Shown here in pieces: positions 24,207 through 61,793 of a stretch of 64,000 nucleotides of DNA. This DNA comes from Zanthoxylum bungeanum (Eukaryota > Streptophyta > Magnoliopsida > Sapindales > Rutaceae). A program made the position numbers and the translations under genes. The notes beneath the pieces were generated by a model. The model saw only the letters and a program-made list of their open reading frames with translations, did no database searches and was not told the DNA's origin. Location of the stretch: NCBI GenBank assembly GCA_019454045.1, contig SKCR01001811.1, positions 1-64,000 of the forward strand, written 5' to 3'. Every line of letters begins with the position of its first letter. Positions within the stretch are counted from its first letter, which is position 1.

Positions 24207-24212
24207 AAGTTT

Positions 24213-24231
24213 TTTGCGCCGTTGATGGGGA
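24213..24231 (+). other. Primer binding site of element F (Asp tRNA type, degenerate)
   Basis: TTGCGCCGTTGATGGGGA follows the LTR. The Athila form is TGGCGCCGTTGCCGGGGA, complementary to the 3' end of plant Asp tRNA; here two or more positions differ. Confidence 0.7.
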
Positions 24232-24447
24232 CTTATTTACCTTTTACTATTAATTTTGAGGTTAGATACTTTACTTGTGTCTAATTTATTTTTACTTATT
24301 ATTTTTATTTTCTTGTGTTTCAGGTTCTCAAACACTACATCAGAAGAAGCAGCAGCTTTGAAATCTGTCCCATTAACCCATAAATTAAAAGAACACTCAG
24401 ACAATTAAGAAGGGAAAGGCGAGAAGATCAAGAAGCAGTGATCAACA

Positions 24448-26655: not shown

Positions 26656-26656
26656 A

Positions 26657-26671
26657 TTGGTATCGGAGCTT
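26657..26671 (+). other. Primer binding site of element G
   Basis: TTGGTATCGGAGCTT follows the LTR by one base. The normal TGGTATCAGAGC has one substitution (A to G). Confidence 0.8.
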
Positions 26672-28577: not shown

Positions 28578-29702
28578 AGCCATGGCATCTGCAATAATCT
28601 CCATTATCAAACAACAAGAAAAATTAACCGGGGATAATTATGTTAAATTGAAAAGTGACATGAATGCTATCTTGGTCTGTGAAGACCTTAAATTTGTCCT
28701 AATGGAGGAATGTCCTCATGTGCCAGCACCTAATGCTGGCAAAGCTGCACGTAAAGCTTATAATAATTGGATTAAAGCTGATGAGAAAGCCCATAGCTAT
28801 TTGATAGCATCCATGTATCAGGATCTTGCTGCACAGCATGAGCCTATGGCGATGACCGGCGTAAACACACACGTATAACGCAAGCGCACGTATCATTCAA
28901 GTAGTATAAAAATATCGATCCCACGAGAACTTAATTCCTACTGTTGTTATTAATTATTGATTCTATTTATTTACGAGTATCTAATTATAGGGAGAAAGGA
29001 ATTGATTGCTTTTGGTTGGTTGAATGTGGTTTTGCAAAATAAAATAAAAACAGACTCAAAAGAAAATACTAAGGAAAATAAAAGAAAAGACTCAAGGATC
29101 TAGGGTCGTGACTCCACACAATATTATTATAAGATGAATTGATTCTCTTATTTATGTGTAATTAATTCAGTTTACTAACCTGGAACACAAAAATATGCAA
29201 AAGCATCTTCCGATGGTCAGATGCAAATACCCAGTATAACACAATTGAACCATATTCCTATGTCAACCATATTACCCTGGATTCATTAAGTTTAAGTTCC
29301 AATTATGGCTACCCCCGCCCGACAGGTATATGTCTATCCTGTAAGGAAATCTATTAAAGGGTTATCTATCCTCAAGGAAGATCGTGAGCTATTGAATCTA
29401 AGGCTAAACTTAAAATCCCTATGTCTAGTTCATTTTAAGTTTACCAAATCAATCTTATTGGTGATCAGACAACAAGAAGCATTAAGCTTAAGACTCAATA
29501 AACAAACTAAAGAACTACCCATAAAAAGAAAATCAATTATTAAGTGTGTGTATTGTGTTTCATCACTTCCCTAGAATAAAATAAAATGCTGGGAGTTAGA
29601 GGATCCACAATTAATATTTCTTATCTAGGAATCTCACTTATTATAATATATAAATTATTTTATATTCTGCTTTCTCAGGAATTAATAATATTAAACATTT
29701 AA

Positions 29703-29831
29703 AACCAGCCATATAGGCGGTAATCTATTTAGTCCAATTACACCAGCCATATAGGCGGTAATTATCTGTCACATAAAGACCAGCCATATAGGCGGTAAGG
29801 TAATTTATATTTAAACCAGCCATATAGGCGG
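29703..29831 (-). repeat. Four bulged-hairpin units in LTR H
   Basis: Sense units ACCGCC-TATAT-GGC-T-GGT at 29703-29720, 29741-29758, 29778-29795 and 29814-29831, identical in the stem and spaced 36-38 bp. They lie downstream of the TATA box and so would be in the RNA. Confidence 0.85.
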
Positions 29832-30112
29832 TAATAAAGTCTGACATTAATTAATCCGGTTAAATTATAATTTATAAATTATAATTAAGTGAGATTTACC
29901 TAAATAATTATATTAAAGGTTTCACCTTTTACCCCAGCGGTAAATTAACTACTAAACATTAAAAAGAAAGGTAGAAGAAGAGAAATACTATTACTGAAAA
30001 TTAAAAGACATAAATTAAAAATATTATTTATATATACAAAAATAGATGCTTCTATGAAATCAGAGAGAATTCTCCAAGGAAAGCATGAAGAAAAATGAAT
30101 CCGGCGGCCTCC

Positions 30113-30119
30113 TTTTATA
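30113..30119 (-). promoter_or_regulatory. TATA box of LTR H
   Basis: The minus strand reads GCCTATAAAAGG, downstream of the ACGT-core array in transcription order. Confidence 0.75.
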
Positions 30120-30224
30120 GGCATATTTTGGTCCAGCGTCGCGGCGCTGGAAATGCACTAGCGTCGCGACGCTGGAAACAGTCCACGCGGGTTGACCACG
30201 CGTCTGTCGGCAGCAATAATTGAG

Positions 30225-30540
30225 CCACGTGTCACGCTATGGTTGGCTGGCGATGTGGTCGAATAGCAGGGCGACACGTGGCAGGCGCTGATAGGTGGAA
30301 TTTCGGTCCAATAGCGGCTTGACACGTGGCAGCATCTGATTCGTCAATAATTCGGTCCAATGGTGAGATGGCACGTGGTACGCGCTTGGTTTGGTCCAAT
30401 GAGATGTTGGCACGTGGCGGCCGGCGCATATTAGCAAAACCGTTGTGATGGTGACATGTGGCACAACGCACGTTAGCATGATCGGCGCACGTTAGTAAAT
30501 TTTGACCAATCAGATTTCGACACGTGCCACACGGTGCAAG
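30225..30540 (-). promoter_or_regulatory. ACGT-core (G-box/ABRE-like) array of LTR H
   Basis: About seven copies of CACGTG with flanks such as GACACGTGGC or GCCACGTGTC (one is CATGTGGC), 35-60 bp apart. They are interleaved with GCGCACGTTAGCA strings and the palindrome AGCGTCGCGACGC. CACGTGGC is the known binding core of plant bZIP/bHLH factors, including ABA-response factors. Activity here is inferred. Confidence 0.7.
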
Positions 30541-31377
30541 TTACCAAGTCCGGCGCATGCTGGGAGTCGCGACGCGCAGGCCTTGAGCGTCGCGACGCGA
30601 AAAAGACAAAAATATCTCTGTTGACGCATTTTTGTCCATTTATGCCCCAAATTGCCTCCAATGCTTTCCAAACTTTATTTATCTGCAAAATAACAAACAA
30701 AACACATCAAAACGTTCATAAAACTCGAGAAACAATACAAAACATTAGGTCAAATGAGTGAGAATAAGTGATATAAATACCACTTATCAGGCGACAACAT
30801 CAATAATTATGCAGTCATTACAGAACATGTTTGGGCAACCTTCAGACCGGCAACAACATGAGGCAATTGCCTCTGTATTGACCGCTAGAATGAAGGAAGG
30901 CACATCAGTCCGAGACCATGTGTTAAGGATGATGGCTCATCTTAATATGGCTGAAACCCATGGTGCACGTATCAATGTGCAAAGCCAGGTGACAATGATC
31001 ATGGAAACCCTTCCGAAGAGTTTCCTGCAGTTTAAAAGCAATTGTTCTTGAATAAATTGACTTTTACGTTGACTGAACTGCTAAATGAGCTCACCAATTA
31101 CGAGTCCGTTATGAATGTTCTCGTAGGCCAAATACCGAGGCAAGTTTCCGAATCTTCTAAATCTGCAAAGAAGAAGAAGAAAGGCAATTGGAAGGCAAAG
31201 AAAACCAATGAAAAAGAAGAACAACAAAAGCTCCAAAGGAACCAATGCCAAAAGAAAATGTTTCCATTGTGAACAACAAGGGCATTGGAAAAGGAATTGT
31301 CCGAAATACCTTGCCGAGTTTAAAAAGAGAAGAAAAAATCAGGTAAATATGATTTACTTGTCATTGAGTCTCTTTTA

Positions 31378-36470: not shown

Positions 36471-36475
36471 TGTGG

Positions 36476-38620: not shown

Positions 38621-39461
38621 TGTTGGACAATTATGACCCATAGCATCACTATTTGTAAAAGACATGGTGTTTTTGTACAAATTAACTATGTGACAAAGAA
38701 AATTGCTCTTTTATCATTTTGTAATTGGATTACTTGGATATATAAATGATAAAAGTCCATATGATAAGTACCAAATTAATAAGATATGTGACAATATTAA
38801 TCCATGAAAGGTTTAATCATTAAATATCCCTAGTCGTAATATTATCGAGACTGGACATCGATAATGCGGAATAGGCTAGTATTACACTTGTGCGCGTTAT
38901 GGAAGCTTAACGACATAGTTCTCATATATTTAAGTATTGGATACTTATGCAAGCGTGATAGGAGGTTATGTTAGCCATTGGACCGGGAACAGCTTCGCTC
39001 TGGATAGACCCCTCGGAGTCCCATTGGTAGTATGACTATGTGTTTATGGGAATCCGAATCAGGGTAGGTGTATGTGGTCTTAACCTGAGACTTGCATCGC
39101 TAATACTTGCGACAATCAGTACGTTTTGGTTTTGGTCGTCCGGGGCTTTAACAGGTTCTGTGTACGCTTCTTCTGGGTATACTGAGAATCGTAGTGTATT
39201 GGGTGTGATGTCAAAATGGAAATATCACTTCAGTCATATGGAGATGATGATCTCACAGGGATACAAAACTAGTACTTTTAAATGTTGCAGCTATAAGGAT
39301 AATTTAACTAGGTCATGATTATCCGATTACAGAGACTAGTTGCTAGTGATCCAATATATGCTTCGTATAGGGCAGTCACAATTCCTGCCCCAGGCCTAGT
39401 ATGTGACATCCGATACTGGATCGTATTATGCAGTACATTGTATACTACGCCTAATACAGAT

Positions 39462-39509
<48 letters not shown>

Positions 39510-44930: not shown

Positions 44931-45235
44931 ACACAAGAACTGCGTAGGTCGGAGAGATTCATAAAACAACCTAAGAGGTATGGGTTTCTGATCTCACCTT
45001 ATGTAGACATTAATCTTATTGAGGATTCAGGAGTGGTAAATCTATCACTATTTCCTACTCATTTAACCTAATATTTTGTATAGTTTCTTGGGTTTTGTGA
45101 ATATTTTGATGTGTTTTGTGTTATTTTGTAGATAAAAACAGTGAAAATTGGAAAAAAGATATTTTCATAATTTTGGGTGCGTCGCGACGCCCAAACCCTT
45201 GGCGTCGTGATGCTTAACGTGCGCTGAGTCCTTGC

Positions 45236-45536
45236 TAACGTCCACCTGGTCCACGTGTCAGAATCTGAAAAGTTGACTTTGCTAACGTGCGCCGTGCCAT
45301 GTGTCACCATCACAGAAGATCTGCTAACGTGCGCCTGCCACGTGTCATCATCCTAATATGCCGACAATTATCATCTACGCTAAAATGCACCTACCACGTG
45401 TCAAAATCTCAGCGGATCACACTAAAATGCGCCTGGACACGTGTCGCCATCATATGTTGCCGACATTAAAAAGTCAACTTCCGACATAACAGTGCCACGT
45501 GTCACGATCTCGTGAAGCCAAGTTTTGCCTATAAAT
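45236..45536 (+). promoter_or_regulatory. LTR promoter of D1: ACGT-core array and TATA box
   Basis: Six to seven elements of the GCCACGTGTCA type (CACGTG at 45254, 45339, 45397, 45440 and 45497, with CATGTG at 45299) lie 40-60 bp apart, followed by TATAAAT at 45530-45536. CACGTG with a C/GC flank is the classical G-box/ABRE core. The spacing and position suit an inducible U3 promoter; which signal acts is not shown. Confidence 0.7.
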
Positions 45537-45812
45537 TCGGCTTTTGGTCACTTCATTTGGTGTGCTTTCCTTGGGAGTTTTTCCCTGTTTTTAAAGGATT
45601 GCATCTAATTTTTGCAAAAATAAATAATATTTAATTTATGTATTTTAATTTTCAGTAGTAATAATAGTTCTTATTCTTCTTCTTCTCTTTTCTTTTATGT
45701 TTTGTAGTTAAATTTCTACTGGGGTAAAGGTGAAGCTTTTTACTTTTATAATTTAGATTAATCTCCCTTAGTTATAATATATAAATTATTTAAAAACTGA
45801 CTTAATAAGGAT

Positions 45813-46207
45813 ATCGCTATATTGGTCGGTTGGTAATTATTTTTAAACTGGTTTTAACCTGACCTAATGAGGATACCACCTGGTTGGTCGGTTGATATTT
45901 AATTATTAATTTGATTTAATCAGGATACTGCCTATATGGCTGGTTGGTAAATATCACACGTATTTATATATTATAATAAGGGAGATTTCTAAATTATAAA
46001 TAGTAATGGTAGATTAATCTTACTTTAATTATAATATGGAAATTGTGATTTAATAATATGGATTAAAAGTTGATTCCGCCTTAATGGCTGGTTTTAATTA
46101 TGTAACATAATGTGACACCGCCTATATGGCTGGTCTTTATGTGACAGATAATTACCGCACATATGGCTGGTTTATGGATAAATAATAAGACCACCTTTAT
46201 GGCTGGT
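45813..46207 (+). repeat. Seven bulged-hairpin units in transcribed part of D1 LTR
   Basis: 18-nt units at 45813, 45875, 45927, 46075, 46117, 46154 and 46190. The consensus is ACC-GCC-TATAT-GGC-T-GGT, a 6-bp stem with one bulged base and a 5-nt loop. Variants keep pairing: ACC-ACC-TGGTT-GGT-C-GGT exchanges G-C for A-U, and ACT-GCC uses a G-U pair. The units at 46154 and 46190 pair less well. Confidence 0.7.
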
Positions 46208-46828
46208 TCAAATTAATTAGATAATACTGGCAATTTCCATATTATAATAATTTGAGATTTTAGGTTTCAGCCTTAGATTCAATAGCTCACGATCTTCCTT
46301 GAGGATAAATAGCCCTTTAATAGATTTCCTTAGAGGATAGACATATACCTGTCGGGTGGGGGTAGCCACATTGGGAATTTATTCTTAATGAATCAAGGTA
46401 ATTTTGTTGACATAGGAATATTTTTCAATTGGGTTATACTTGATATATGCGTCTGACCATCGGAAGAGGCTTTTGCATATCATCGTGTTCCAGGTTAACA
46501 AATTAATTTATTACACATAAATAAGAGAATCAATTCATCTTTATAATAATATTGTGTGGAGTCACGACCATAGATCCTTGAGTCTTTTCTTTTATTTTCC
46601 TTAGTATTTTCTTTTGAGTCTGTTTTTTATTTTATTTTGCAAAAACCACATTCAACCAACCAAAAGCAATCAATTCTCTTCTTCCTATAATTAGATACAT
46701 GTAAATAAATAGTATCAATAATTAATAACAACAGTAGGAATTAATACCTCGTGGGATCGATATTTTTATACTATTTGAACGATACGTACGCTTGCGTTAT
46801 ACGTGTGTGTTTACGCCGGTAAAGTTTT

Positions 46829-46846
46829 TGGCGCCGTTGTCGGGGA
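46829..46846 (+). other. Primer binding site of D1 (Asp tRNA type)
   Basis: TGGCGCCGTTGTCGGGGA matches the Athila Asp tRNA site except for one base. Confidence 0.85.
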
Positions 46847-46953
46847 CTTATTTTTCTTTAGTTATTAATTTTGAAGCTATCTAATTTACTTGTATCTAAT
46901 TTTCTTTTATCTGTATTTTTTATTTCCTTATTTTATTTTTTAGGTGATTGAAA

Positions 46954-47931
46954 AATGGAACATTATTGGGAGATTGAAAGATTACGAGCTTTACAAGAAG
47001 ATACACCCCACATCTGGGAGTAACAATCCGATTTTCTGAACCTGTTGTCCAGCCCAAAAATTATCACTGGATGCCAGAACCAAGCAATGCTACATTTGCT
47101 CAACAGAACGCAATGTGGAGATGTGACATATGTAATGGTAACCACCCAAGCGATTATTGCGAGTACAACTACAATCCAGGGTGGCAGAGCTATCAAAATC
47201 ATTCAAGGTACGAAGAGACATCACATTTTCCACCTTATCCATCATCTACCTACGATCTTCATCAACAATCAGAACCATCAGAAGAAGATCAGATGATTGA
47301 CACGCTCAAAGATTGGTTCAAGAAATGAGACGAAGAGTTGGATACGATGCTTGAAACATACCAGAATCAACTCGAAAGTATTCAGAGACAATCAGCATCC
47401 ATTCAGAATATGACAGATCAAATGAGACTATTAACTGAAAACAAGAGCTACATATCTCAAGAACCATTTTCAGATGACACTGATGAAGCCTTCGAGTACC
47501 AATCATTTCACAATGACACCTTAACAGAGGAGGAGGCTGAGTAGTATCAACAACCAGAGGTATCAGTTCAGGAGCCCGAACCAGCAAAGTCTCTATTTGA
47601 TTTTTATTATTCAAATTCTAACTCTGACGAGGACAAAAAAGCTGAGCTGTTTGTACCAATTACACCAACAAAGGAGGATCAAACTTTCAATCCTCAAAAT
47701 GAAGATCTTGGAGCATGCTTTGCAACAATGTTTGAAGAAGATCTTCCTGAACCATCCATTCCAGTCATATCAGAGGATGAAGACCTAAAATCTGACATTT
47801 CTTTACATCCTCAGGTTGACAATTTTGAAGCATGTATTTCACAGATGACAGATGAAGAGCTGAATGCAGAAATTTTCAAATACATTTGTGAAGAAAACGT
47901 GGAGCAAGAAGCAGAGCAAATGGAGGAGTAA
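46954..47931 (+). pseudogene. gag remnant of D1
   Basis: The ATG at 46954 (M-E-H-Y-W-E-I-E-R-L) is followed by TAA after 22 codons and a frameshift. The next frame has W-M-P-E-P-S-N-A-T and a zinc-knuckle-like C-D-I-C-N-G-N-H-P-S-D-Y-C, then Y-N-P-G-W-Q-S-Y-Q-N-H as in Athila gag. A predicted coiled coil and an acidic tail follow in further frames up to 47931. Only the C-terminal part of gag is represented; the capsid core is absent. Confidence 0.75.
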
Positions 47932-48000
47932 TTGTCAGACCAAATTGAAAATCCAGAGCTTTCAGGAGAAACATCATTGTTTTGGGGAGTAAAATTTAGA

Positions 48001-48243
48001 GAAATCACCTAGAAGCTTGACAGAATGAAACTTCCATTCCAAGTCAAGCACCATACAAGACCTCCTGATTTTCTTTCTTTCTTTTCAGGAACCACTGGAG
48101 CAACAAAGGTTAAAAAGGTGGCACAAGGACTGAATGAGACAAAATATTTTTTGCCACTTTACCGTTGGAAGAGACCTTTCAAAAGAAACGCTCATGGGAT
48201 TGTCTTTAATCAGACATCCAAAACGACGCTGAAACCTCATTGA
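48001..48243 (+). pseudogene. Conserved unknown segment of the D family (D1 copy)
   Basis: About 72 codons with K-L-D-R-M, F-Q-V-K-H-H-T-R-P-P-D-F-L-S-F-F and L-P-L-Y-R-W-K-R-P-F. The same segment is in D2 (56114-55722) with about 80 percent identity and no indels, so it was kept when other parts decayed. No family was recognised. The following GGGAGGCAACC resembles the post-pol sequence of Athila elements, so it may be a highly altered end of pol. Confidence 0.55.
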
Positions 48244-48783
48244 CAGATGGATTTCAGTCCCGTCTGGCTGAAGACGGAAAATTTAGCGCTAGTAGGGAGG
48301 CAACCTATGCAATTTGTTGTAATTTTTGTTTCATATTTTGTGTATACATGTTGTAGAGTTCTTAATTTTGTGTGTTATTTTTGTAGGGAAAAGCACAAAC
48401 GGAGCATTTTAAGACAGAAGGAAAACATGAATGATGTTTTGCAATCAGGAAGAAAAGAGCTAATTCATTTGTGATGGCTGAGTAAAGAATTAATTCTTGA
48501 GACGCATCCTAATGAATTTATATTAAGCGAGTGGCGTATTGCGTACACAATTCTGTTGCCTTAATTAATTGCTTTGATTCGCTTTTCTGTTGTAATTATC
48601 TTTATTTTCGTAGACATGATCCAGACTTTTTGACCTTTCACGATTTCTTTTGTTTTGTTTAGCTAACAAACGTCCTATGGAAGATACTAGTGCTATTATT
48701 ACTCACCCTTTTCAGGTACTATAAATTTAGCCCGTCATTGCACCTTTGGAGGCATCCAGATTTGAGAAAGAAATACATAAAAA

Positions 48784-49370
48784 ATGGTAGCCACTTCATG
48801 AAGACGAGTTGAAAACATTTGTGTGTTTTGTGGTAGTAGTGTTGGTGTTAAGCCACAATACGTAGAAGCAGCACAGGAATTGGGTCTAGTCTTAGCTGCA
48901 AGGAATATGCACTTAATATATGGCGGAGGAAATCTTGGACTTATGGGGATCGTTTCAAAGGCTGTACAGGAAAGAGACAGTCACGTTTTGGGAATCATCC
49001 CAAAACCCTTGGCAGAGGAAAATCTTATTGAGCCATCAAACAGAGAGGAACTGATCGTGCCAGGTATGTCCGAGCGATTGGTAGAAATGATTAACCGTGC
49101 TGATGCTTTTATCGCTTTGCCAGGTGGCTTGGGATGTTTAACGTTGATGGATTTTATGATTTTCTTTGTGTGTTTCTTGATGATGCCCGGAGAAATGGGT
49201 TCGTGTCAAAATCTTTGAAAGAACTCCTCTTTACAGCCAGAACTGCTCCGGATCTAATAGACCAACTCATAGCCTATGAACCACAAGTTGACCCTATCCT
49301 TTCAAAGATAAATTGGTCCAAGAATGATAATGGTAAGAGGCGTAGGATTAATCTGGATCTTAACCTTTAA
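48784..49370 (+). pseudogene. Captured LOG-type gene, D1 copy (broken)
   Basis: LOG proteins release active cytokinin bases from riboside 5'-monophosphates in the cytosol; they belong to the Rossmann-fold family once called lysine decarboxylase-like. The copy starts at ATG 48784 and shows V-F-C-G-S-S, then Y-G-G-G-N-L-G-L-M-G (nucleotide-binding loop), I-P-K-P-L, M-S-E-R (the catalytic Arg position) and A-F-I-A-L-P-G-G. A TGA at codon 6, and a deletion of about 70 bp after P-G-G-L-G relative to D2, destroy the gene. The deletion removes the G-T-L-E-E part of the signature P-G-G-x-G-T-x-x-E and shifts the frame. Beyond it the C-terminal part (L-N-V-D-G-F-Y to L-D-L-N-L) is intact in the next frame. 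There are no introns, although plant LOG genes normally have several, so capture was probably through RNA. Confidence 0.85.
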
Positions 49371-50690
49371 TTTCCTATAGATTTTCAGTTAACCAGGTAC
49401 GACCTTCTTAACTCTCATTTTACTGTTTAAGATATTGGGGACAATGTCTCATTTTGGTTTGGGGAGGGAATTAGTTGATCTGTACCTTGTTTTTAGTTTG
49501 TGTGTTATTTTTATTTTTAGTCCAAAATTTTTCGAAAAATACAAAAAAAAATTGAATTTTTTTCAAAAATTACAAAAATATTTTGCGTTTTTATAGTTTT
49601 ATTTTGACTAAAAAGGTGAAATTGGTAAGAGATATCTTAGTAAGGATTTTTCACTCCTGAGATGTATCTCAAACCATTTTTGAAACAAGTTAATTTTGGT
49701 TTATTTCATTTTGAATTATTTAATTTGTAAATTCTCCATAAAATTGACTAAAATGGATCTTCATATGCTCAATTGACAGGTATTATCAACATACATAGAA
49801 ACATACAGACATGAGCTAAAATTGAAAAGTTTGTAATATTCAGTGCTCTCGTTTAATTGGAGGAAGCATCTCAAAAAGCAATGGAGTAAAAAAAAAATCT
49901 GAGATCCGAGTTATTAAGTCTTTAAGGGTGTTTTAACACCTAATGCCCTAAAAGCCAACTGGTTTGGGAGTCACTGGCCCAAAGCTCGCTACATGGATCA
50001 AAGATGCTGCAAAAATATATATATCTGAAGTCTGAGCAATTAAGTCCGTAGGGGTGTCTTAACACCTGGTGCCCTAAAGCCAACTGGTTTGGGAGCCACC
50101 GACCCAACACTCGCTACATAGACGGAAGGTATTGTATATAAATAAAAAACAGAGAAAAATCAAAGAAAAAATCTGAAAAATCCGAAAAATTATTCCATTG
50201 CTGCAAAAAGGTGTGAATTCCGATAAAACTTTAGGACAAAAATATTACTCTCTTATCAACTGCACTTATGACTGTTGTGGGTAAAAATGAGTTAATTAAT
50301 ATTTTGTTGGCTGTGTATATGGAGAATTGTAAATATAATCGGAGAATTTACCTATTCGGTAATTTAGAAAGAAATAAAACAACTAGTAACTTGGAGTAGA
50401 AGTTTCACCTGATTAGTCACTAACATCTTTATTCTCCTTTCGCTTGTCTTTTTTCTTTTGTTTGCATTAGTTTTACTTTCTTTTTACTTTTGTAAAATGT
50501 TTGCGGGTATCATTGTTGTAAACCCTCACGAGACTACAACTCGTCCACTAGGGACACCTAGGGATTTAAAGGCTTGTTACATACGCTAAATGAAACCGTG
50601 ATCCCTACGAAAGTGGCTTAGTTTAATTTTATTATGTTATTTTATTTTTTGTTTTGCTCGAGGACTAGCAAAATGTTAGGTTTGTGGGTG
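49371..50690 (+). other. 3' region of D1 after the LOG-type gene
   Basis: Begins with GATATTGGGGACAATG, typical of Athila 3' regions, and ends with the purine-rich GGTTTGTGGGTG before the 3' LTR. It contains the direct repeats at 49898-50130. No gene is seen. Confidence 0.6.
49898..50130 (+). repeat. Two direct repeats of about 120 bp with internal palindromes
   Basis: Each unit has AGTCTTTAAGGGTGTTTTAA-like sequence forming the palindrome GGGTGTTTTAACACC (second unit GGGTGTCTTAACACC), then GCCAACTGGTTTGGGAG and CTCGCTACAT. The same pair occurs in D2 at 53785-54000 on the minus strand. Confidence 0.8.
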
Positions 50691-51096
50691 TGATGAGTGG
50701 TAAATCTATCACTATTTCCCACTCATTTAACCTAATATTTTGTATAGTTTCTTGAGTTTTGTGAATATTTTGATGTGTTTTGTGTTATTTTATAGATAAA
50801 TAAAGTTCCAGGACATTCTGGAGGTGATTTGGACCAAAACAATGAAAATTGGAAAAAGGGCATTTTCGTAATTTTGGACGCGTCGCGACGCCCAAACCCT
50901 TGACGTCGCGACACCTAACATGCGCCGAGTCCTTGCTAACGTACGCCTGGTCCACGTGTCAGAATCTGAAAAGTTAACTTTGCTAACATGTTTTGTGCCA
51001 CGTGTTACCATCACAGAAGATCTGCTAACGTGTGTCTGCCACGTGTCATCATCCTAAAATGCCGACAATCATCATCTACGCTAAAATGCACATACC
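50691..51096 (+). repeat. 3' LTR of D1, left part
   Basis: Starts TGATGAGTGGTAAATC after the purine tract and is interrupted by D2 after ATACC (51092-51096). Confidence 0.9.
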
Positions 51097-51987
51097 TGAC
51101 CGGCGTAAACACACACGTATAACGCAAGCGCACGTATCGTTCAAGTAGTATAAAAATATCGATCCCACGAGGACTTAATTCCTACTGTTGTTATTAATTA
51201 TTGAATCTATTTAATTACAAATATCTAATTAAAGGGGAGAATGGAATTGATTGCTTGATTGATTTGGTTGATTGAAGATTTGCTAAATAAATAAATAAAA
51301 AGATAAAAGAAAATACTAAGGAAAATAACAGATAAAAAGATATAAGGTTGTGATTTCTTTTAAGTATCATTTAAAAGATGAAGTGATTATTTTATGTTTG
51401 TGTAATAAATCAGTTTACTAACCTGGAACACTAAATTATGTAAAAGCCTCTTCCGATGGTCAACTACAAATACCCAGTATAACCCAATTGAACCATATTC
51501 CTATGTCAACCACATTACCTGGATTCATTAAATCTAAGTTCCAATTATGGCTACCCCCGCCCGACAGGTATATTCCTATCCTGTAAGGAAATCTATTAAA
51601 GGGTTATCTATCCTCAAGGAAGATCGTGGGCTATTAAGTCTAAGGCTAAAACCTAAAATCCCTATGTCTAGTTCATTTTAGATTTACCATTTCAATCTTA
51701 TTGGTGATCAGACAATAAGAAGCATTAAGCTTAAGACTTAATAAGTAAACTTATTAATTACCCAAACTATAAAATAATCTCTTATAAACTATTGATATTA
51801 AAAGTCATCACAACCCCTAGTTAACTAACACATAACTAGGACTAGTAAAAACATAAAAATAAAAGACATAAAATAAAAATACTGAAAAGTAAAATAAAAT
51901 AAAATGTTAAGGTAAAAGGAATTATTTCTACTACTACTTATTTAGATATCTCCCATTAAAATAATATAAAAACTTGTGATTAATATC

Positions 51988-52128
51988 AACCAGCCATAAA
52001 GGCGGAACCAAAATAACCAGCCATAAAGGCGGAACCAAAATAACCAGCCATAAAGGCGGAACCAAAATAACCAGCCATAAAGGCGGAATATATGTTTTAT
52101 TATTCACCGACCAATCTGGCGGTATCCT
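51988..52128 (-). repeat. Hairpin units in D2 3' LTR
   Basis: Four tandem 27-bp units with sense CCGCC-TTTAT-GGC-T-GG, plus a fifth, ACC-GCC-AGATT-GGT-C-GGT, at 52111-52128. Compared with LTR H the units have become a true tandem array. An identical set is in the partner LTR at 57954-58095. Confidence 0.8.
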
Positions 52129-52514
52129 GATTAAGTCCAATTTAAATAGTAAATATATTATTTTAAGGGAGATTAATCTAAATAGTAATAGTAAAAGAAA
52201 TTACCTTTCACCCGAACATAAAGAAATTACCGCATCACGGTAAATAGTAAAAACTGTAAAAAGTAAAAAGTAAATAGTAAAAACTGTAAAAGAAAGTAAA
52301 AAGTAAAAATTAAATTACTATTATTACAAAAAGTAATTAAAATTATTTACAAAACTTAAAAAAGTAAAAACTAAAGACTTTTAGAGAGAGAAACTCTCTC
52401 TTTAGAAGGAGTTGAAGAGAGAGGATGGGATACAAATTTCTGAAATCGGGTTCTGAATTTATAGGCTTCAATGGGGTGCGCGCGTCGCGCCGCGCGGCCA
52501 GCGTCGCGACGCGC

Positions 52515-52910
52515 GCTACAGTGACACGTGTCACTTGCTGGTTCGTTGACTCAGATCTGATCCGCTGACGTGGCACTGTTCATGACGTCATCGCTTACGT
52601 CATGCTGACGTGTCAACTGTTCATGACGTCATTGCTTGCGTCATGGTGATGAGGTGGAAGGTGACGTGGCGACACGTGGGGCGGCGGCCGTCCGACGAAT
52701 GAGATGTTGACACGTGGCGCGCTGTGATTGGCTGATGATGACGTGGCACGTTGACTCGGTTGACTTGCTGACGTGGCTGCTGATGTGGACGATGATGTGG
52801 CGACACGTGCATGACACGTGAGGCGGTGGCCGTCCAAGCAATGAGATCTTGACACGTGGCACGGCGCACGTTAGCATCTCCGTTGTGATGGTGACACGTG
52901 GCAGGCGCAT
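52515..52910 (-). promoter_or_regulatory. ACGT-core array of D2 LTR
   Basis: At least twelve ACGT cores in 400 bp, either CACGTG (GACACGTGGC, GACACGTGTC) or TGACGTGGC/TGACGTCA types. This combines G-box/ABRE and TGACG-like motifs. It is the densest array in the window and is duplicated in the 5' LTR at about 58480-58865. Confidence 0.72.
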
Positions 52911-53207
52911 GTTAGCAAAGTCAACTTTTCTCAGATTCTGATTTTGTGGACCCAGCGTATTTTAGCAATTTCGGCGCAGGCTGGGCGTCGCGGCGCGCAA
53001 GGCTCCAGAGTCGCGACGCGCAGAAGAAGGAATTTTTCCTGTTGACACATTTTTGACCGGTTTTGTCCCAAATTGCCTCCAGTGCTGTCCAAACTATATT
53101 TATCTGCAAAATAACAACAAACACATCAAAACGTTCATAAAACTCGAGAAATAATACAAAACATTAGGTCAAATGAGTGGGAATAGTGGTATAAATACCA
53201 CTCATCA

Positions 53208-54000
53208 CACCCCCAACCTAACATTTTGCTAGTCCTCGAGCAAAACAGAAAATAAAATAAAATAAACTTTAACTAAGCCACTTTCGTAGGGATCACGATT
53301 GCATTTAGCGTATGCAACAAGCCTTTAAACCCCTAGGTGTCCCTAGTGGACGAGTGTAGTCTCGTGAGGGTTTACAGCAATGATACCCACAAACATTTTA
53401 CAAAAGTAAAAAGTTAGTTAAAACTAATGCATACAAAAGCAAAAAGACAAGCGAAAAAGAGAATAAAGAAAGTTAGTGACTAATCAGGTGAAAATTCTAC
53501 TCCAAGTTACTAGTTGTTTTGTTTCTTTCTAAATTACCGAATAAGTAAATTCTCCGATTATTTTTACCATTCTTCATATACACAGCCAACAAAATATTAA
53601 TCAACTCATTTTTGCCCACAACAGTCATAAGTGCAGTTGATAAGAGAGTAATATTTTTGTCCTAAAGTTCTATCAGATTTCACATCTTTTTGTAGCAATG
53701 GAATAATTTTCTGATTTTTCTGATTTTTTCTTTGATTTTTTCTCTATTTTTTTATTTATATACAATATCATCTGTCTATGTAGCGAGCTTTGGGTCGGTG
53801 GCTCCCAAACCAGTTGGCTTTAGGGCACCAGGTGTTAAGACACCCCTACGAACTTAATTACTCAGACTTCAGATAATATATTTTTTGCCAGCATCTTTGA
53901 TCCATGTAACGAGCTTTGGGCCAGTGACTCCCAAACCAGTTGGTTTTAGGGCACTAGGTGTTAAAACACCCTTACAGACTTAATAACTCGGATCTCGGAC

Positions 54001-54036
<36 letters not shown>

Positions 54037-54550
54037 CCATCACTATTTAGAGATGCTTCTTCCAATTAAACTATAGCACGGAATATACAAACTTTTCAAT
54101 TTTAGCTCATGACTGATGTATGTTTCCATGTAAGTCATAATACCTGTCAACTGAATATATGAAGATTCATTTTAGTCAGATTTATGGAGAATTCACAAAT
54201 TAAATAATTTAAAAGGAAATAAACAAAAATTAACTTGTTTTGAAATAAATGGTTTGAGATACGTATCAGGAGTGAGAACTCCTTACTCAGCTACCTTTCA
54301 CCAATTTCACCTTTTTAGTCAAAATAAAACAAAAATGCAAAATATTTTTGTAATTTTTGAAAATTTTTCAATTTTTTTGTATTTTTCGAAAAATTTTTGG
54401 ACTAAAAATAAAAACAACATACAAACTAAAAATAAGGTACTAATCAACTAAATTCCTCCCCCAAACCTAAATGAGACATTGTCCCCAATGTCTTAAACAG
54501 TAAAAGGAGAGTTAGAAGGTTGTACCTGGTTAGCTGAAATCTACAGGAAA
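53208..54550 (-). other. 3' region of D2
   Basis: Collinear with the D1 region 49371-50690, including the purine tract next to the LTR (plus strand CACCCCCAACC) and the paired repeats at 53785-54000. A T run at 54001-54033 interrupts the second repeat boundary. No gene is seen. Confidence 0.6.
54001..54033. repeat. Poly-T run
   Basis: 33 consecutive T (a poly-A run in the sense of D2). In D1 the matching place is a short A run, so this is probably local slippage. Confidence 0.9.
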
Positions 54551-55205
54551 TTAAAGGTTAAGATCCAGATTAATTCGACGCCTCTTACCACGATCGTCCT
54601 CAGACCAATTTATTTTTGATAGGATAGGGGTCAACTTGTGGTTCATAGGCTATGAGTTGGTCTATCAGATCCGGAGCAAGTCTGGCAGTGAAGAGGAGAT
54701 CTTTCATAGGTTTTGACACGAACCCATTTCTCCGAGCATCATCAAGAAACACACAAAGAAAATCATAAAATCCATCAACGTTGAGTAGTCCAATTGGTTT
54801 CTAGTGTATGTTCAGGTTCGCCCAAGATAGAACTATAAAAATTTCCTCCAATGTACCCAATCCACCTGGTAAAGCAATAAAAGCATCAGCACGGTTAATC
54901 ATTTCTACCAAACGTTCAGACATACCTGATACAATCAGTTCCTCTCCGTTTGATGATCCAATAAGATTTGCATCTGCCAAGGGTTTTGGGACGATTCCCA
55001 AAACGTGACTGCCTCCTTCCTGTACGGCTTTTGAAACGATCCCCATAAGTCCGAGATTTCCTCCGCCATATATTAGGTGCATATTTCTTGCAGCTAAAAC
55101 TCGACCCAATTCCCGTGCTGCTTCTATGTATTGTGGTTTAGTACCAACAGTACTACCACAAAACACACAAATGTTTTCAACTCGTCTTCTTGAAGTGGCT
55201 TCCAT
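54551..55205 (-). pseudogene. Captured LOG-type gene, D2 copy (nearly intact)
   Basis: ATG at 55205, about 217 codons to the TAA at 54553, the usual LOG length. Motifs in order: V-F-C-G-S-T, Y-G-G-G-N-L-G-L-M-G, V-P-K-P-L, M-S-E-R, A-F-I-A-L-P-G-G-L-G-T-L-E-E (full signature with the Glu), W-A-N-L-N-I-H, K-P-I-G-L-L-N-V-D-G. Two defects are seen: a TAG at 54801-54803 between N-I-H and K-P-I-G, and one extra C near 54626 that shifts the last 25 codons. It contains no introns. The gene is in sense orientation within D2. The exact LOG subfamily was not determined, and enzyme activity of the family may vary. Confidence 0.88.
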
Positions 55206-55721
55206 TTTTTATGTATTTCTTTTTCAAATCAGGATGCCTTCAAAAGTGCAATGACGGGCTGAATTTATAGTACCTGAAAAAGGGTGAGTAATAATAGCAG
55301 AAGTATCTTCCAGAGGACGTTTGTTAGCTAAACAACAAAACAAATCGTGAAAGGTCAAAAAGTCTGGATCCTGTCTACGAAAATAAAAATAATTACAACA
55401 GAAAAGCGAATCAAAGCAATAATTAAGGTAACGGAATTGTGTACGCAATACGCCACTCGCTTAGTATAAATTCATTAGAATGAGTCTCAAGATTTCATTC
55501 TTTATTCAGCCATCGCTAATGAATTGTCTTATATTTGCTTGCCAAACACAATTCCTTCTGTCTTAAAATGCTTCGTTTTGTGCCTTTCCCTACAAAAATA
55601 ACACACAAAATTAAAAAGTTCACACAAAACATGAAAAAAATAATTACAACAAATTGCATGGGTTGCCTCCCTGCTAGCGCTAATTTTTCGTCTTCAGCCA
55701 GACGTGACTGAAATATATTTG
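55206..55721 (-). other. Spacer upstream of the D2 LOG-type gene
   Basis: Aligns with D1 48244-48783. A short frame shared by both (N-K-R-P-x-E-D-T-x-A-I-I-T-H-P-F) could be part of the captured transcript leader or of the element; no family was recognised. Confidence 0.45.
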
Positions 55722-56114
55722 TCAAGGAGGTTTCAATGTCGTTTTGGATGTCCGATTAAGGACAATCCCGTGAGCGTTGCTTTTGAAGGGTCTCTTCCAA
55801 CGGTAAAGTGGCAAAAGGAGTTTTGTCTCATTCAGTGCTCGTGCCACCTTTTTAATCTTTATTGCTCCAGTGGTTCCTGAAAAGAAAGAAAGAAAATCAG
55901 GAGGTCTCGTATGATGCTTGACTTGGAATGGAAATTCCATTCTGTCAAGCTTCTGGGTGATATCTTTGATTTGTACTCCCCAACACAGCGATGTTTTTCC
56001 TGAATGCTCTAGATCTTTATTAAGGTCAGACATTTGCTCCTCCATTTGCTCTCTGCTTTTTGCTCCACCTTTTCTTCGCAGATGTATTTGAAAATTTCTG
56101 TATTCAGCTCTCAT
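55722..56114 (-). pseudogene. Conserved unknown segment of the D family (D2 copy)
   Basis: An open frame of up to 130 codons, with the R-P-P-D-F-L-S-F-F and L-P-L-Y-R-W-K-R-P-F segment in its C-terminal half and a charged, Glu/Lys-rich N-terminal half. It ends just before the GGGAGGCAACC sequence. The function is unknown. Confidence 0.55.
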
Positions 56115-56942
56115 CTGTCATCTGTGAAATACATGTATCAAAATTGTTAACCTGAGGATGAAAAGAAATGTCAGATTTTAGGTCTTCATCCTCTGATCTG
56201 GGTGAAATGATTGGCTCAGGTAGATCTTCATCAAACATTTGTGCAAAGCATTCTCCAAGATCTTCATTTTGAGGCTTGAAAGTTTGATCCTCCGTTGTTG
56301 GTGCAGTTGGAATAAATGGATCAGCTTCCTCCTCGTCAGAGTCAGAATAATAAAAATCAAATCGAGACTTTGCCGGTTCGGGTTCCTGAACTGATACCTC
56401 TGGTTGTTGATACTGCTCAGCCTCCTCCTCTGTTGAAATGTCATTGTGAAATGATTGGTACTTGAAGGCTTCATCAGTGTCATCTGGAACTGGTTCTTGA
56501 GAGTATATAGTTCTGGTTTTCTGTGAATTGTCTGATCTGATCTTTCATTCTCTGTATAGAAGCTGTTTGACTCTGAATTTGTGCATCAAATTGAGCTGCT
56601 TGTTCCTTGAACATGTGAATCAATTGATCTTCCTCAAATGGTTCTGGTTGTTGATGAAGATCAAAGGTAGATGGTGGATAAGATGGAAAATGTGGCTCTG
56701 TGAAATGTGATGGCTCTTCATTGCATGATTGCCTCCAGAAATTCTCCCACTCTGATCGATATATACATATGATCTGCGTCGGGTGGTTACTGTCACAAAT
56801 CACACATCTCCCCATTTCGTTCTGATGAACAAATGTAGCATTGCTTGGTTCTGGCATCCAGTCAACAGGCCTCAGAAAACCAGACTGTTGCTCCCAGATT
56901 TGGGGGTGTACGTAGTCTCTCAATCTCCCAGTAGTGTTCCAT
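56115..56942 (-). pseudogene. gag remnant of D2
   Basis: The ATG at 56942 (M-E-H-Y-W-E-I-E-R-L) gives way after a short deletion to a second frame that is open for about 147 codons. That frame has W-M-P-E-P-S-N-A-T, a zinc-knuckle-like C-V-I-C-D-S-N-H-P-T with its last Cys altered, and a glutamine-rich coiled coil. It is better preserved than the D1 copy. Confidence 0.72.
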
Positions 56943-57060
56943 TTTTAAGTCACCTGAAATCAAAAGAAAGTAATAAAAATTACAGATAAAAATAAAGAAA
57001 TTAGAATAAAAAAGAAAATTAGATACCAAGTAAATTAGATAGTTTCAAAATTAACAACTA

Positions 57061-59170
57061 AAGAAATATAGTCCCCACCACACGTATAACGCAAGCGCAC
57101 GTATCGTTCAAGTAGTATAAAAATATCGATCCCACGAGGACTTAATTCCTACTGTTGTTATTAATTATTGAATCTATTTAATTACAAATATCTAATTAAA
57201 AAGGAGAATGGAATTGATTGCTTGATTGATTTGGTTGATTGAAGATTTGCTAAATAAATAAATAAAAAGATAAAAGAAAATACTAAGGAAAATAACAGAT
57301 AAAAAGATATAAGGTTGTGATTTCTTTTAATATCATTTAAAAGATGAAGTGATTATTTTATGTTTGTGTAATAAATCAGTTTACTAACCTGGAACACTAA
57401 ATTATGTAAAAGCCTCTTCCGATGGTCAACTACAAATACCCAGTATAACCCAATTGAACCATATTCCTATGTCAACCACATTACCTGGATTCATTAAATC
57501 TAAGTTCCAATTATGGCTACCCCCGCCCGACAGGTATATTCCTATCCTGTAAGGAAATCTATTAAAGGGTTATCTATCCTCAAGGAAGATCGTGGGCTAT
57601 TAAGTCTAAGGCTAAAACCTAAAATCCCTATGTCTAGTTCATTTTAGATTTACCATTTCAATCTTATTGGTGATCAGACAATAAGAAGCATTAAGCTTAA
57701 GACTTAATAAGTAAACTTATTAATTACCCAAACTATAAAATAATCTCTTATAAACTATTGATATTAAAAGTCATCACAACCCCTAGTTAACTAACACATA
57801 ACTAGGACTAGTAAAAACATAAAAATAAAAGACATAAAATAAAAATACTGAAAAGTAAAATAAAATAAAAATGTTAAGGTAAAAGGAATTATTTCTACTA
57901 CTACTTATTTAGATATCTCCCATTAAAATAATATAAAAACTTGTGATTAATATCAACCAGCCATAAAGGCGGAACCAAAATAACCAGCCATAAAGGCGGA
58001 ACCAAAATAACCAGCCATAAAGGCGGAACCAAAATAACCAGCCATAAAGGCGGAATATATGTTTTATTATTCACCGACCAATCTGGCGGTATCCTGATTA
58101 AGTCCATTTAAATAGTAAATATATTATTTTAAGGGAGATTAATCTAAATAGTAATAGTAAAAGAAATTACCTTTCACCCGAACATAAAGAAATTACCGCA
58201 TCACGGTAAATAGTAAAAACTGTAAAAAGTAAAAAGTAAATAGTAAAAACTGTAAAAGAAAGTAAAAAGTAAAAATTAAATTACTATTATTACAAAAAGT
58301 AATTAAAATTATTTACAAAACTTAAAAAGTAAAAACTAAAGACTTTTAGAGAGAGAAACTCTCTCTTTAGAAGGAGTTGAAGAGAGAGGATGGATAAAAT
58401 TTCTGAAATCGGGTTCTGAATTTATAGGCTTCAATGGGGTGCGCGCGTCGCGCCGCGCGGCCAGCGTCGCGACGCGCGCTACAGTGACACGTGTCACTTG
58501 CTGGTTCGTTGACTCAGATCTGATCCGCTGACGTGGCACTGTTCATGACGTCATCGCTTACGTCATGCTGACGTGTCAACTGTTCATGACGTCATTGCTT
58601 GCGTCATGGTGATGAGGTGGAAGGGACGTGGCGACACGTGGGGCGGCGGCCGTCCGACGAATGAGATGTTGACACGTGGCGCGCTGTGATTGGCTGATGA
58701 TGACGTGGCACGTTGACTCGGTTGACTTGCTGACGTGGCTGCTGATGTGGACGATGATGTGGCGACACGTGGCATGACACGTGAGGCGGTGGCCGTCCAA
58801 GCAATGAGATCTTGACACGTGGCACGGCGCACGTTAGCATCTCCGTTGTGATGGTGACACGTGGCAGGCGCATGCTAGCAAAGTCAACTTTTCTCAGATT
58901 CTGATTTTGTGGACCCGGCGTATTTTAGCAATTTCGGCGCAGGCTGGGCGTCGCGGCGCGCAAGGCTCCAGAGTCGCACGCGCAGAAGAAGGAATTTTTC
59001 TGTTGACGCATTTTTGACCGGTTTTGTCCCAAATTGCCTCCAGTGCTGTCCAAACGATATTTATCTGCAAAAAAAACAACAAAACACATCAAAACGTTCA
59101 TAAAACTCGAGAAATAATACAAAACATTAGGTCAAATGAGTGGAAATAGTGGTATAAATACCACTCATCA
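57061..59170 (-). repeat. 5' LTR of D2 with deleted primer-site junction
   Basis: Nearly identical to 51097-53207. At its inner end, however, the plus strand passes from ATAGTCCCC directly to ACCACACGTATAACG. The LTR terminus and almost the whole Asp-type primer site are missing (about 40 bp by comparison with D1 and the partner LTR). Confidence 0.85.
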
Positions 59171-60224
59171 CTACCACGTGTCAAAATCTCAATGGATCAC
59201 ACTAAAATGTGCCTGGACACGTGTCGCCATCACATGTTGCCGACATCAAAAAGTCAACTACCGACATAACAGTGCCACGTGTCACGATCTCGTGATGCCA
59301 AGCAACACGTGTCGCAAATCAACGCGCGTCGGGACGCTGGAACCAAGTTTTGCCTATAAATTCGGCTCTTGGTCACTTCATTTGGTGTGCTTTCCTTGGG
59401 AGTTTTTCCATGTTTTTAAAGGATTGCATCTAGTTTTTGTAAAAATAAATAATATTTAATTTATGTATTTTAATTTTCTGTAATAATAATAGTTCTTCTT
59501 CTTCTTCTTCTTCTTCTTCTTCTTCTCTTTTCTTTTATGTTTTGTAGTTAAATTTCTGCTGGGGTAAATGTGAAGCTTTTTACTTTTATAATTTAGATTA
59601 ATCTCCTTTAGTTATAATATATAAATTATTTAAAACCTGACTTAATAAGGATACCGCTATATTGGTCGGTTGGTAATTATTTTTAAACTGGTTTTAACCT
59701 GACTTAATGAGGATCCCGCCTGGTTAGTCGGTTGATATTTAATTATTAATTTGATTTAATCAGGATACCACAATGAGAATTTAATCTTAATAAGTCAAGG
59801 TAATTTGGTTGACATAAGAATATTGTTCAATTGGGTTATACTGGATATATGCGTCTGACCATCAGAAGAGGCTTTTGCATATCATCGTGTTCCAGGTTAA
59901 AAAATTAATTTATTACACATAAATAAGAGAATCAATTCATCTTTATAATAATATTGTGTGGAGTCACGACCCTAGATCCTTGAGTCTTTTCTTTTATTTT
60001 CCTTAGTATTTTCTTTTGAGTCTGTTTTTTATTTTATTTTGCAAAAACTACATTCAACCAACCAAAAGCAATCAATTCTCTTCTTCCTATAATTAGATAC
60101 ATGTAAATAAATAGTATCAATAATTAATAAAAACAGTAGGAATTAAGTCCTCGTGGGATCGATATTTTTATACTACTTGAACGATACGTACGCTTGTGTT
60201 ATACGTGTGTGTTTACGCCGGTCA
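59171..60224 (+). repeat. 3' LTR of D1, right part
   Basis: Resumes with CTACCACGTGTC, has TATAAA at 59355-59360 and hairpin units near 59662 and 59715, and ends GCCGGTCA. About 430 bp of the hairpin region present in the 5' LTR is deleted at about 59769. Confidence 0.9.
59492..59527. repeat. CTT microsatellite
   Basis: About eleven TTC/CTT repeats, expanded relative to the corresponding 5' LTR position (45666-45690). Confidence 0.9.
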
Positions 60225-61793
60225 AGGATAATGAACCGGCTACGTATGAGGAAGCGATACAAGGTATCGACTTCGCTTTATGGCAAGTTGCCATGAAATC
60301 CGAAATGGATTCCATGTATACAACTAAGTTTGGACACTGGTTGATGTACCAGAAGGCATTGTGCCTATTGGTAGTAAATGGGTCTTCATGGTGAAGACAA
60401 ACATAGATGGCAACATACAAACGTATAAAGCTAGGCTTATAGCGAAAGGTTATCATCATCAACATGGTTTCAATTACGACGAAATCTTTTAACTGTTGCC
60501 ATGATTAAATCCATTCGGATAATGCTTGCAAATGCCGCATATTTCGATTCTGAAATATGGTAGATGGACGTCAAAATCGTTTTCCTTAACGGAAACCTTT
60601 TGGAGGATGTTTATATACAACACCCTGATGATTTTGTCGTGCCAAAACATGCAAAAAATATTTGCAAGTTAAATCGATCCATTTATGGATTGAAGTAAGC
60701 ATTGCGTTCTTGGAACCAACGTTTTGATGAGATCATAATGGTATACGGTTTCATTCAAAACGAAGATGATTCTTATGTATATAAGAAGGTTAGTGGAACG
60801 CACTGACATTGATTGTCCTATACGATGATGATGTATTGCTGCTCAGCAATGACATTCCCATATTATAATCGGTGAAAGCTTGGCTTTCATTAAAATTCTC
60901 CATGAAATTCTTTGGAGAGAAGACCTTTATTCTAGGAATAAGGATCTACTGGGATAAATCTAAAAGTTGTTGGCACTCTCCGAGAACACGTACATTGACA
61001 ATGTTGAAGAGATTCAACATGGATCAGTCCCAGAAGGGACTGCCTCCAGTATCACATGGCGTCTCTCTATCTAAGAACATATGTCATAAAACTCAAGATA
61101 AGAGAGATTCAATGAATCAGATCCCGTTCGCTTAAGCAGTCGGATTGATCATGTATGTCATAACATGTATGTGACTTGGTGGCTCATACGCTTTGAGCAT
61201 ATATAGTCACAATTAGGCCGATCCAGGTGATAGTCACTGGATTGATGTTAAGAACATCCTTTAGTATCTTAGACGAACTAAGGATGCTTTCTTAATTTAT
61301 GGAGATAGAGAACTTGAGGTGATTGGGATCACCGATGTAAGTTTCCAAACCGATAACGATGACTATAAGTCGCAATAAGGGTACATATTTTGTTTGAACA
61401 ACGGAACAATGAGTTGGAAATCTTCCAAGCAAGATACTGTTGCCGATTCAACAAAAAAATCGGAATACATTATTGCGGCTGAGGCAGCAAAAAAAGCATT
61501 TTGGATCTATAAAATTCCTAATTGGATTAAGAGTAGTTCTGTTAGCAGCTGAGCTGGGCTACAACATAGGCTAAGGTATTAAGGTCTCATCAATGATCCA
61601 AGTATTTACTTCGATGGTTTCATCTGATTCGTGAGATCACACATCGTAGCGATGTGAAGATCTAAAAGATCATTTCAGATGATAGCCTTGCAGATCTGCT
61701 GACGAAAGCTATATCTCCGCAAAAGTTTGAGCGACCCGTACAAAGTTTAGGTGTTGGACACTTGAGTGATTTGATATAGGCCAAGTGGTTGAT
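60225..61793 (+). pseudogene. Reverse transcriptase and RNase H of element E (decayed)
   Basis: Continues E pol after D1: E-P-A-T-Y-E-E-A-I-Q-G, then fragments of R-T in three frames. The active-site box reads L-Y-D-D-D-V-L where Y-V-D-D is expected. The RNase H trace A-D-S-T-K-K-S-E-Y-I-I-A-A-E-A-A appears near 61445. Stops are too many for any function; this is the oldest-looking coding region of the window. Confidence 0.88.

Follow-up and report, generated by a model that had tools for sequence, protein, structure and literature searches.

LOG-type genes in a mobile family of long terminal repeat retrotransposons of Zanthoxylum bungeanum

In a 64,000-nucleotide window of the Zanthoxylum bungeanum genome (GenBank assembly GCA_019454045.1, contig SKCR01001811.1, positions 1 to 64,000, forward strand), we examined two nested long terminal repeat (LTR) retrotransposons, D1 and D2, each of which carries an intronless, sense-oriented gene of the LOG family of cytokinin-activating enzymes. 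Both window genes are pseudogenes, but they belong to a very abundant family whose LOG-bearing elements have moved throughout this genome and whose intact LOG copies bear the codon pattern of purifying selection. On balance, we consider it probable that LOG is an element gene that is selected between jumps and aids the element via cytokinin release. LOG-bearing Ty3/gypsy elements are already known in print and are not new as such; new, as far as our literature search reached, are the extent of the family here, a viral-type partner gene, a C-terminal tail on the enzyme, and the retention of LOG in members that lack pol.

An earlier note, made from the window sequence alone, had proposed that the LOG gene was mobilized as part of an element family. 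The genome searched was the window's own (3.96 Gb in 51,709 contigs, some of which are second haplotypes). A DNA search with the D1 LOG scored 40 out of 6757 loose first-look candidates; first-look figures, here and below, do not measure copy number. Twenty stretches of ~9–10 kb were fetched around places from this search, and one (L010) was dropped because it is the window locus on the second haplotype (99.97% across 8948 bp), leaving 19 loci. Outer LTR ends were paired by script in 10 of these. In nine of the ten, LOG lies between LTRs flanked by perfect and mutually different 5-bp target duplications (L012, L015, L016, L017, L018, L020, L021, L023, and L024); the tenth, L022, is without a perfect duplication and looks like complex nesting. 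LTR pairs differ by a Kimura two-parameter distance (K2P) of 0.010–0.044 in the eight end-paired elements with both LTRs measured. A primer binding site (PBS), TGGCGCCGTTGCCGGGGA, follows the 5' LTR exactly in seven of the 14 loci printed and with one base off in the other seven.

Many of the genomic copies are open. LOG is a full open frame in 7/19 of the D1-like loci. A LOG protein search returned 70,454 first-look candidates; among the best 150, which were scored, 125 had no internal stop, a set that favors open frames because it comprises the highest-scoring candidates. With a canonical LOG query, 26 matches were flagged with exactly one TAA. Spread of a sub-family with a shared stop was ruled out, as all 14 of the copies fetched are open and their TAA sits in the leader, two codons before the ATG. 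Across the genome, then, many copies look preserved from one jump to the next, and the window's own two are pseudogenes.

Within the window, D1 is a plus-strand element and D2 a minus-strand element inserted inside D1's 3' LTR (Table 1). As the earlier note had claimed, these are separate insertions with their own target duplications. AGGAT flanks D1 on both sides, whereas the D2 flanks read ATACC and CTACC (4/5 bases identical), the latter also being read at D2's target site in D1's uninterrupted 5' LTR. The D2 LTR pair is 99.3% identical (K2P 0.0067) and the D1 pair has K2P values of 0.095 over 365 bp and 0.044 over 994 bp, indicating that D2 inserted well after D1. The LTR pair, PBS, polypurine tract, and target site duplication typical of LTR retrotransposons are present, except that D2 has lost its PBS; that of D1, TGGCGCCGTTGTCGGGGA, is presumably the complement of the 3' end of plant Asp-tRNA. 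D1 is itself nested in a Ty1/copia-like element (LTRs at ~38620–40542 and 61793–63627, 87.8% identical), giving three levels of nesting. The LTRs of D1 and D2 are 56–81% alike in 300-column windows of a global alignment (regions 45027–50690 and 53208–59170), and the 3' internal half with LOG is 88–95% alike, a combination that may reflect mosaic elements or fast LTR turnover. The divergent LTRs, opposite strands, and different target duplications rule out segmental duplication of one locus as the source of the pair. Given that result, the nine further LTR-bounded elements recovered from the genome, and the placement of the protein in the LOG family by Pfam, NCBIfam, tree, and the predicted fold of a relative, mobilization as a family is shown; none of the outcomes that would have spoken against it was observed.

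LOG was also said to lie between a gag remnant and the 3' LTR. The position is as described; the gag identity was assigned by eye, to the C-terminal part of gag, and Pfam finds no gag domain in the window's gag-like open reading frame (ORF), which in D1 carries four stops across 400 matched codons. The protease (PR), reverse transcriptase (RT), and integrase (INT) of larger relatives have no match in D1 or D2, and neither element holds the gag, PR, RT, RNase H, and INT set, in gypsy order, of an autonomous Ty3/gypsy element. The main ORF of each window LOG copy scores above the curated cut-offs of PF03641, PF18306, and TIGR00730, in agreement with the claim that both elements carry the same gene. 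The 134-aa D2 piece reaches 78.4 bits for PF03641 (cut-off 27) and 125.3 for TIGR00730 (cut-off 96.35), with the equivalog NF058542 below its cut-off (93.6 vs 300). In D1, codon 6 of LOG is a stop, and a frameshifting 67-nt deletion removes the second half of the PGGxGTxxE motif; in D2, the motif is kept, codon 135 reads TAG, and one nucleotide has been inserted close to the 3' end.

The codon pattern of LOG argues for constraint. The ratio of nonsynonymous to synonymous substitution (dN/dS) between the D1 and D2 copies is 0.25, with a codon bootstrap range of 0.13–0.44 and 0/1000 replicates at or above 1; this is the one comparison not made among copies chosen to be intact. Over the 276 pairs of 24 intact genomic copies, the median is 0.24, no pair reaches 1 where dS exceeds 0.02, and the median holds also in the 84 pairs with dS of at least 0.2. 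Variants shared by at least two of the 24 copies fall on codon positions 1/2/3 as 29/19/62, and singletons as 33/27/42. An earlier 21-copy set that included broken copies gave 26/16/47 for shared variants and 52/38/62 for singletons. The weaker positional bias among singletons is as expected if copies decay freely after insertion. Lesions over 16 elements number 12 in 3453 LOG codons and 34 in 6474 codons of the gag-like ORF, frequencies that are about equal. For comparison, dN/dS is 0.21 for integrase and 0.43 for the gag-like ORF (one pair each). Judged from the sequences, LOG is thus under codon-level constraint.

Larger members of the family reveal a second accessory gene. Five of the 19 loci (L019, L025–L028) contain, upstream of LOG, a 182-codon ORF that resembles betaflexivirus nucleic-acid-binding proteins (NABPs). 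Carla_C4 and Viral_NABP score above their curated cut-offs (25.2 bits against 20.9 and 29.0 bits against 23 for the first family member) and match 29/31 and 27/31 family members at E 0.01. Like the cysteine-rich NABPs of carlaviruses (PF01623, PF05515), the protein has a basic stretch followed by a Cys cluster; unlike them, it is ~182 aa long and element-borne. Its AlphaFold model is poor (pLDDT 61, pTM 0.30), a PDB sequence search with the protein found nothing, and a scan of viral contigs returned no relatives.

Matches to protease, reverse transcriptase, and integrase lie upstream of NABP and LOG in L019. L025 has a protease match, L026 an integrase match, and L027 and L028 a protease plus an integrase end; a capsid-type gag domain was seen only in L027. 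Three additional loci (L030–L032), picked for a LOG identical or almost identical to database protein P0002, show the order gag end, protease-like, RT, RNase H, integrase, NABP, LOG; pol is frameshifted in them, as is NABP in L031 and L032. Pfam detects RT and RNase H in these loci, whereas rve is above its cut-off only in L032 and below it in the L030 and L031 pieces, and the protease falls short (16.5 vs 20.3). The order PR–RT–INT–NABP–LOG is therefore found in four genomic copies (L019 and L030–L032). Among the 14 loci without a full NABP ORF, NABP remnants are small at most, 12 have no pol match, and the pol matches of L023 and L029 fall outside their LTR borders. A search that recovered a leader remnant in D1 gave no protein-level match to NABP there. 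Given that pol matches are likewise lacking in D1 and D2, the two represent a pol-less form retaining LOG and are most likely deletion derivatives of larger Athila-like Ty3/gypsy members. The family has LTRs of 1.8–2.1 kb, the TGGCGCCGTTGCCGGGGA site, and NABP plus LOG after INT. We take long LTRs, an Asp-tRNA-type PBS, and a sense extra ORF 3' of pol to be Athila features, and these lineage-level traits suggest that the family is Athila-like.

The element LOGs form a lineage of their own. A quick tree was built from 70 rows picked from listings (64 element-type LOGs and four canonical plant LOGs, rooted on two bacterial LOGs); in it, the element-type rows make up one clade beside the canonical plant LOGs (Shimodaira–Hasegawa approximate likelihood ratio test support 98). 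A careful tree, made without three fused Rhamnella and Orobanche models that have long branches, places 61 element-type rows in one clade with support 100/98. Besides copies of this genome, the clade holds members from several rosids and a single asterid genus; a single capture would be the simplest reading of it, and LOG elements may also have been transferred between plants. Among the best 120 of 7892 matches to the D2 LOG, the closest are "ena" proteins (up to 87%), and the named relatives come from Xanthoceras, Populus, Reevesia, and Diplodiscus. The NABP ORF has 176 relatives, the best 120 of which include proteins of Xanthoceras, Acer, Citrus, Rhamnella, and Orobanche; Rhamnella and Xanthoceras are rosids, and Orobanche is an asterid. 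Six gene models fuse NABP with LOG: P0233, P0251, and P0253 in Citrus, P0247 in Rhamnella, and P0241 and P0254 in Orobanche gracilis. Such fusions indicate that the adjacency recurs in the three genera, with LTR borders seen only in the present genome. A further Rhamnella model, P0242, joins an integrase end to NABP, by its sequence. A search with the gag-like piece found 25 proteins, all from "ena" contigs, and LOG scans of viral and genome contigs gave only one remote viral-contig match (L001, 27%). The genome search with a canonical LOG query, swamped by element copies, did not find the donor host LOG gene. Populus proteins named LOGL10 also fall in the element clade, and part of the LOG genes annotated in plants may in fact belong to retrotransposons.

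Residues that we take to be the LOG motif (PGGxGTxxE) and the catalytic Arg (R98) are well preserved: over 28 rows, P113, G114, G115, and G117 are invariant, and R98, T118, and E121 are conserved in at least 90%. Canonical plant LOGs (At2g37210, At5g11950, and the Diospyros LOG7-like protein) share the motif and the fold but, in the rows seen, are without the basic, LxLxL-ending tail; the element LOGs differ also in being intronless and in a separate clade. In the element clade, the C-terminus runs from a variable linker through a basic cluster to alternating leucines. Non-gap conservation over 49 aligned rows is 42/44 for K207, 37/40 for L213, 37/39 for L215, and 36/39 for L217. The exact LxLxL ending with a basic cluster occurs in 70 of 96 listed proteins of 205–260 aa, the other 26 including near-variants, Xanthoceras-type proteins ending at the basic cluster, truncated models, and two canonical LOGs. 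To us, the tail resembles a nuclear localization signal followed by an EAR-type LxLxL repressor motif. The predicted structure of the L032 LOG has the LOG fold (pLDDT 85; best PDB matches At5g11950 and At2g37210), with low confidence in the tail, as if disordered.

The explanation we favor begins with larger members that would carry gag–PR–RT–RNaseH–INT–NABP–LOG between LTRs, D1 and D2 being pol-less relatives. A plant LOG coding sequence would have been captured once, without introns, and would have gained the basic tail ending in LxLxL. From then on, LOG would have been inherited as a gene of the element through retrotransposition, with purifying selection acting between jumps and free decay setting in after insertion, a combination that makes it most likely that LOG helps the element and not the host. 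LTR-driven RNA would then yield an active phosphoribohydrolase and, in turn, active cytokinin in element-expressing cells. The hormone would hold such cells in, or push them into, a dividing meristematic state, which would favor element transcription, integration, and germ-line passage; the tail may send the enzyme to the nucleus or recruit a co-repressor. More tentatively, and with doubts that exceed our confidence, we envisage a rosid and asterid lineage with a two-gene manipulation module, a viral-type NABP and a nuclear-targeted, LxLxL-tailed cytokinin enzyme, in which the enzyme would be selected even in pol-less parasites and the element would use a hormone signal of its own making to set the state of its host cell.

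Several observations weigh against the favored explanation. Total D1–D2 divergence in LOG (0.103) is no lower than in the flanking element DNA (0.094–0.103), so constraint is visible only in the codon pattern. Both window LOGs are broken and D2 moved recently, so a broken LOG may not block mobilization in trans. The 24 copies used for dN/dS were intact by construction, and NABP dN/dS, 0.24–0.32 in deeper pairs, rises to 0.38–0.97 in close ones. The copies of this genome and several other rows have another residue in place of the Lys that follows R98 (SERLVEM for MHxRKAEM), a Lys that the Xanthoceras rows keep, and substrate or activity may therefore have changed. Finally, the exact LxLxL ending is kept in 17 of the 24 intact copies of this genome.

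Some of these points would suit a LOG that was captured once and has since been neutral cargo, its intact look stemming from recent amplification of a few masters. Host-gene capture by LTR elements is known, LTR divergence is low, LOG and the gag-like ORF have lesions at about the same frequency, and total LOG divergence equals that of flanking DNA. We nevertheless regard neutral carriage as quite unlikely, given a median dN/dS that stays low across the more divergent pairs and lies near the integrase value, a motif and tail conserved across proteins only ~50% identical, and the occurrence of this ORF in an asterid as well as in several genera of rosids. Somewhat less unlikely, though still doubtful, is a role outside cytokinin activation, with the LOG fold recast as a nuclear adaptor that would link to a co-repressor or to the nucleic-acid-binding partner, for instance to counter silencing. 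The alternating leucines after a basic cluster and variable linker, their absence from two canonical LOGs of the same listing, the changed residue after R98 in many rows, and the location of LOG downstream of a full NABP-like ORF in 5/19 loci, and of NABP with or without frameshifts in L030–L032, are consistent with such a role. An adaptor, however, would not need PGGxGTxxE and R98, which are kept in nearly all 28 rows; moreover, the tail is predicted to be disordered, the Xanthoceras group ends after the basic cluster, and LxLxL is altered in 7 of the 24 intact copies here. The naming of annotated clade members as LOG-like (Populus LOGL10) would fit host-domesticated genes that sit by chance in old LTR elements and are kept for the plant's benefit. 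Domestication is highly improbable in light of the perfect, different target duplications, the many similar copies, and gene models of other plants in which the viral-type ORF is fused to LOG or to integrase, and we reject it on the free decay after insertion.

Precedents exist for parts of this system. Steinbauerova et al. reportedly described, in 2011, two Athila-like elements with a LOGL4-like extra ORF. These share with the present family the Athila lineage and an extra 3' ORF with LOG similarity; the family here differs in being very abundant and in having pol-less members and a viral-type neighboring ORF. A later survey cites that study for the LOG domain in Ty3/gypsy and reports a YgdH (LOG) domain in the Ty3/gypsy consensus sequences of two Citrus species (C. 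sinensis and C. clementina), with Populus trichocarpa appearing only in unfiltered data (Alvarado-Marchena et al. 2022, PMC9289625). These elements resemble ours in having a LOG-family domain inside Ty3/gypsy in rosid hosts; the survey's section on such domains gives LOG two sentences and mentions neither an NABP ORF, selection, nor pol-less carriers. It also notes that orchid Gypsy elements carry an AlkB-type m6A demethylase (PMC9289625), likewise an acquired accessory enzyme in Ty3/gypsy; the enzyme and the group of hosts differ from those here. Enzymes of the AlkB type also occur in some plant RNA viruses. Between pol and the 3' LTR, Athila elements may have sense extra ORFs, env-like or other (PMC7264820), in the accessory position that is filled here by NABP and LOG. 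Among open-licence papers, and hence as weak evidence, we found no account of the NABP–LOG pair, the LOG tail, or LOG in pol-less derivatives.

Table 1. Coordinates of D1, D2, related LTRs, and NABP-like ORFs
Feature	Sequence	Position	Strand	Basis
Target site duplication AGGAT, left of D1	window	45022..45026	.	sequence
D1 (whole element)	window	45027..60224	+	
D1 5' LTR	window	45027..46822	+	self-BLAST, borders
D1 PBS	window	46829..46846	+	sequence
D1 gag-like ORF remnant	window	46955..48243 (approximate boundaries)	+	zinc-knuckle-like motif by eye
D1 leader remnant (leader lies just upstream of the NABP ORF in larger members)	window	48256..48329	+	82% DNA match
D1 LOG-type gene, broken	window	48784..49370	+	profiles, lesion comparison
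D1 polypurine tract preceding 3' LTR	window	50677..50690	+	by sequence
D1 3' LTR, first part (final 5 bases are D2's left target duplication)	window	50691..51096	+	self-BLAST
Target site duplication ATACC, left of D2	window	51092..51096	.	
D2 (whole element)	window	51097..59170	-	
D2 3' LTR	window	51097..53207	-	self-BLAST
D2 LOG-type gene, broken	window	54551..55205	-	profiles, lesion comparison
D2 gag-like ORF remnant, spread over several frames	window	55722..56950 (approximate boundaries)	-	
D2 5' LTR (small deletion removed LTR/PBS junction)	window	57079..59170	-	self-BLAST, borders
Target site duplication CTACC, right of D2	window	59171..59175	.	
D1 3' LTR, second part	window	59171..60224	+	self-BLAST
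Target site duplication AGGAT, right of D1	window	60225..60229	.	
D1/D2-related LTR, PBS-like stretch after it, no LOG match alongside	window	22576..24314	+	
Solo LTR akin to D1/D2 LTRs, GGCGA target duplication both sides	window	28853..30789	-	
NABP-like ORF	L019	4859-5404	-	
NABP-like ORF	L025	4998-5543	-	
NABP-like ORF	L026	4872-5417	-	
NABP-like ORF	L027	4916-5461	-	
NABP-like ORF	L028	3701-4246	+	

The window as a whole is a plant-type, repeat-rich region. A second LTR pair (24675–26663 and 34504–36478, 96.6% identical) lies around pol ORFs at 32344–34523 that are copia-type by eye, and a match to the plant snoRNA snoR71 lies near an LTR end (36650–36756, minus strand; RF00097, 46.3 bits, gathering threshold 40). 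Tandem arrays at 3639–4257 and 10286–10734 consist of related ~29–35 bp units in opposite orientation. One array stands just before a direct-repeat pair (4275–6283 and 10982–12979, 90.8%), and the other between the two repeats.

Beyond this genome, the presence of LOGL10 in the element clade and the NABP–LOG fusions of Citrus, Rhamnella, and Orobanche imply that plant LOG gene counts may be inflated. The viral-type ORF beside LOG suggests gene exchange between RNA viruses and retrotransposons. The usual view is that mobile elements make use of their host's growth state rather than setting it. If the explanation favored here is true, a selected hormone-activating enzyme in many open copies would tie transposable elements directly to the control of plant hormones.

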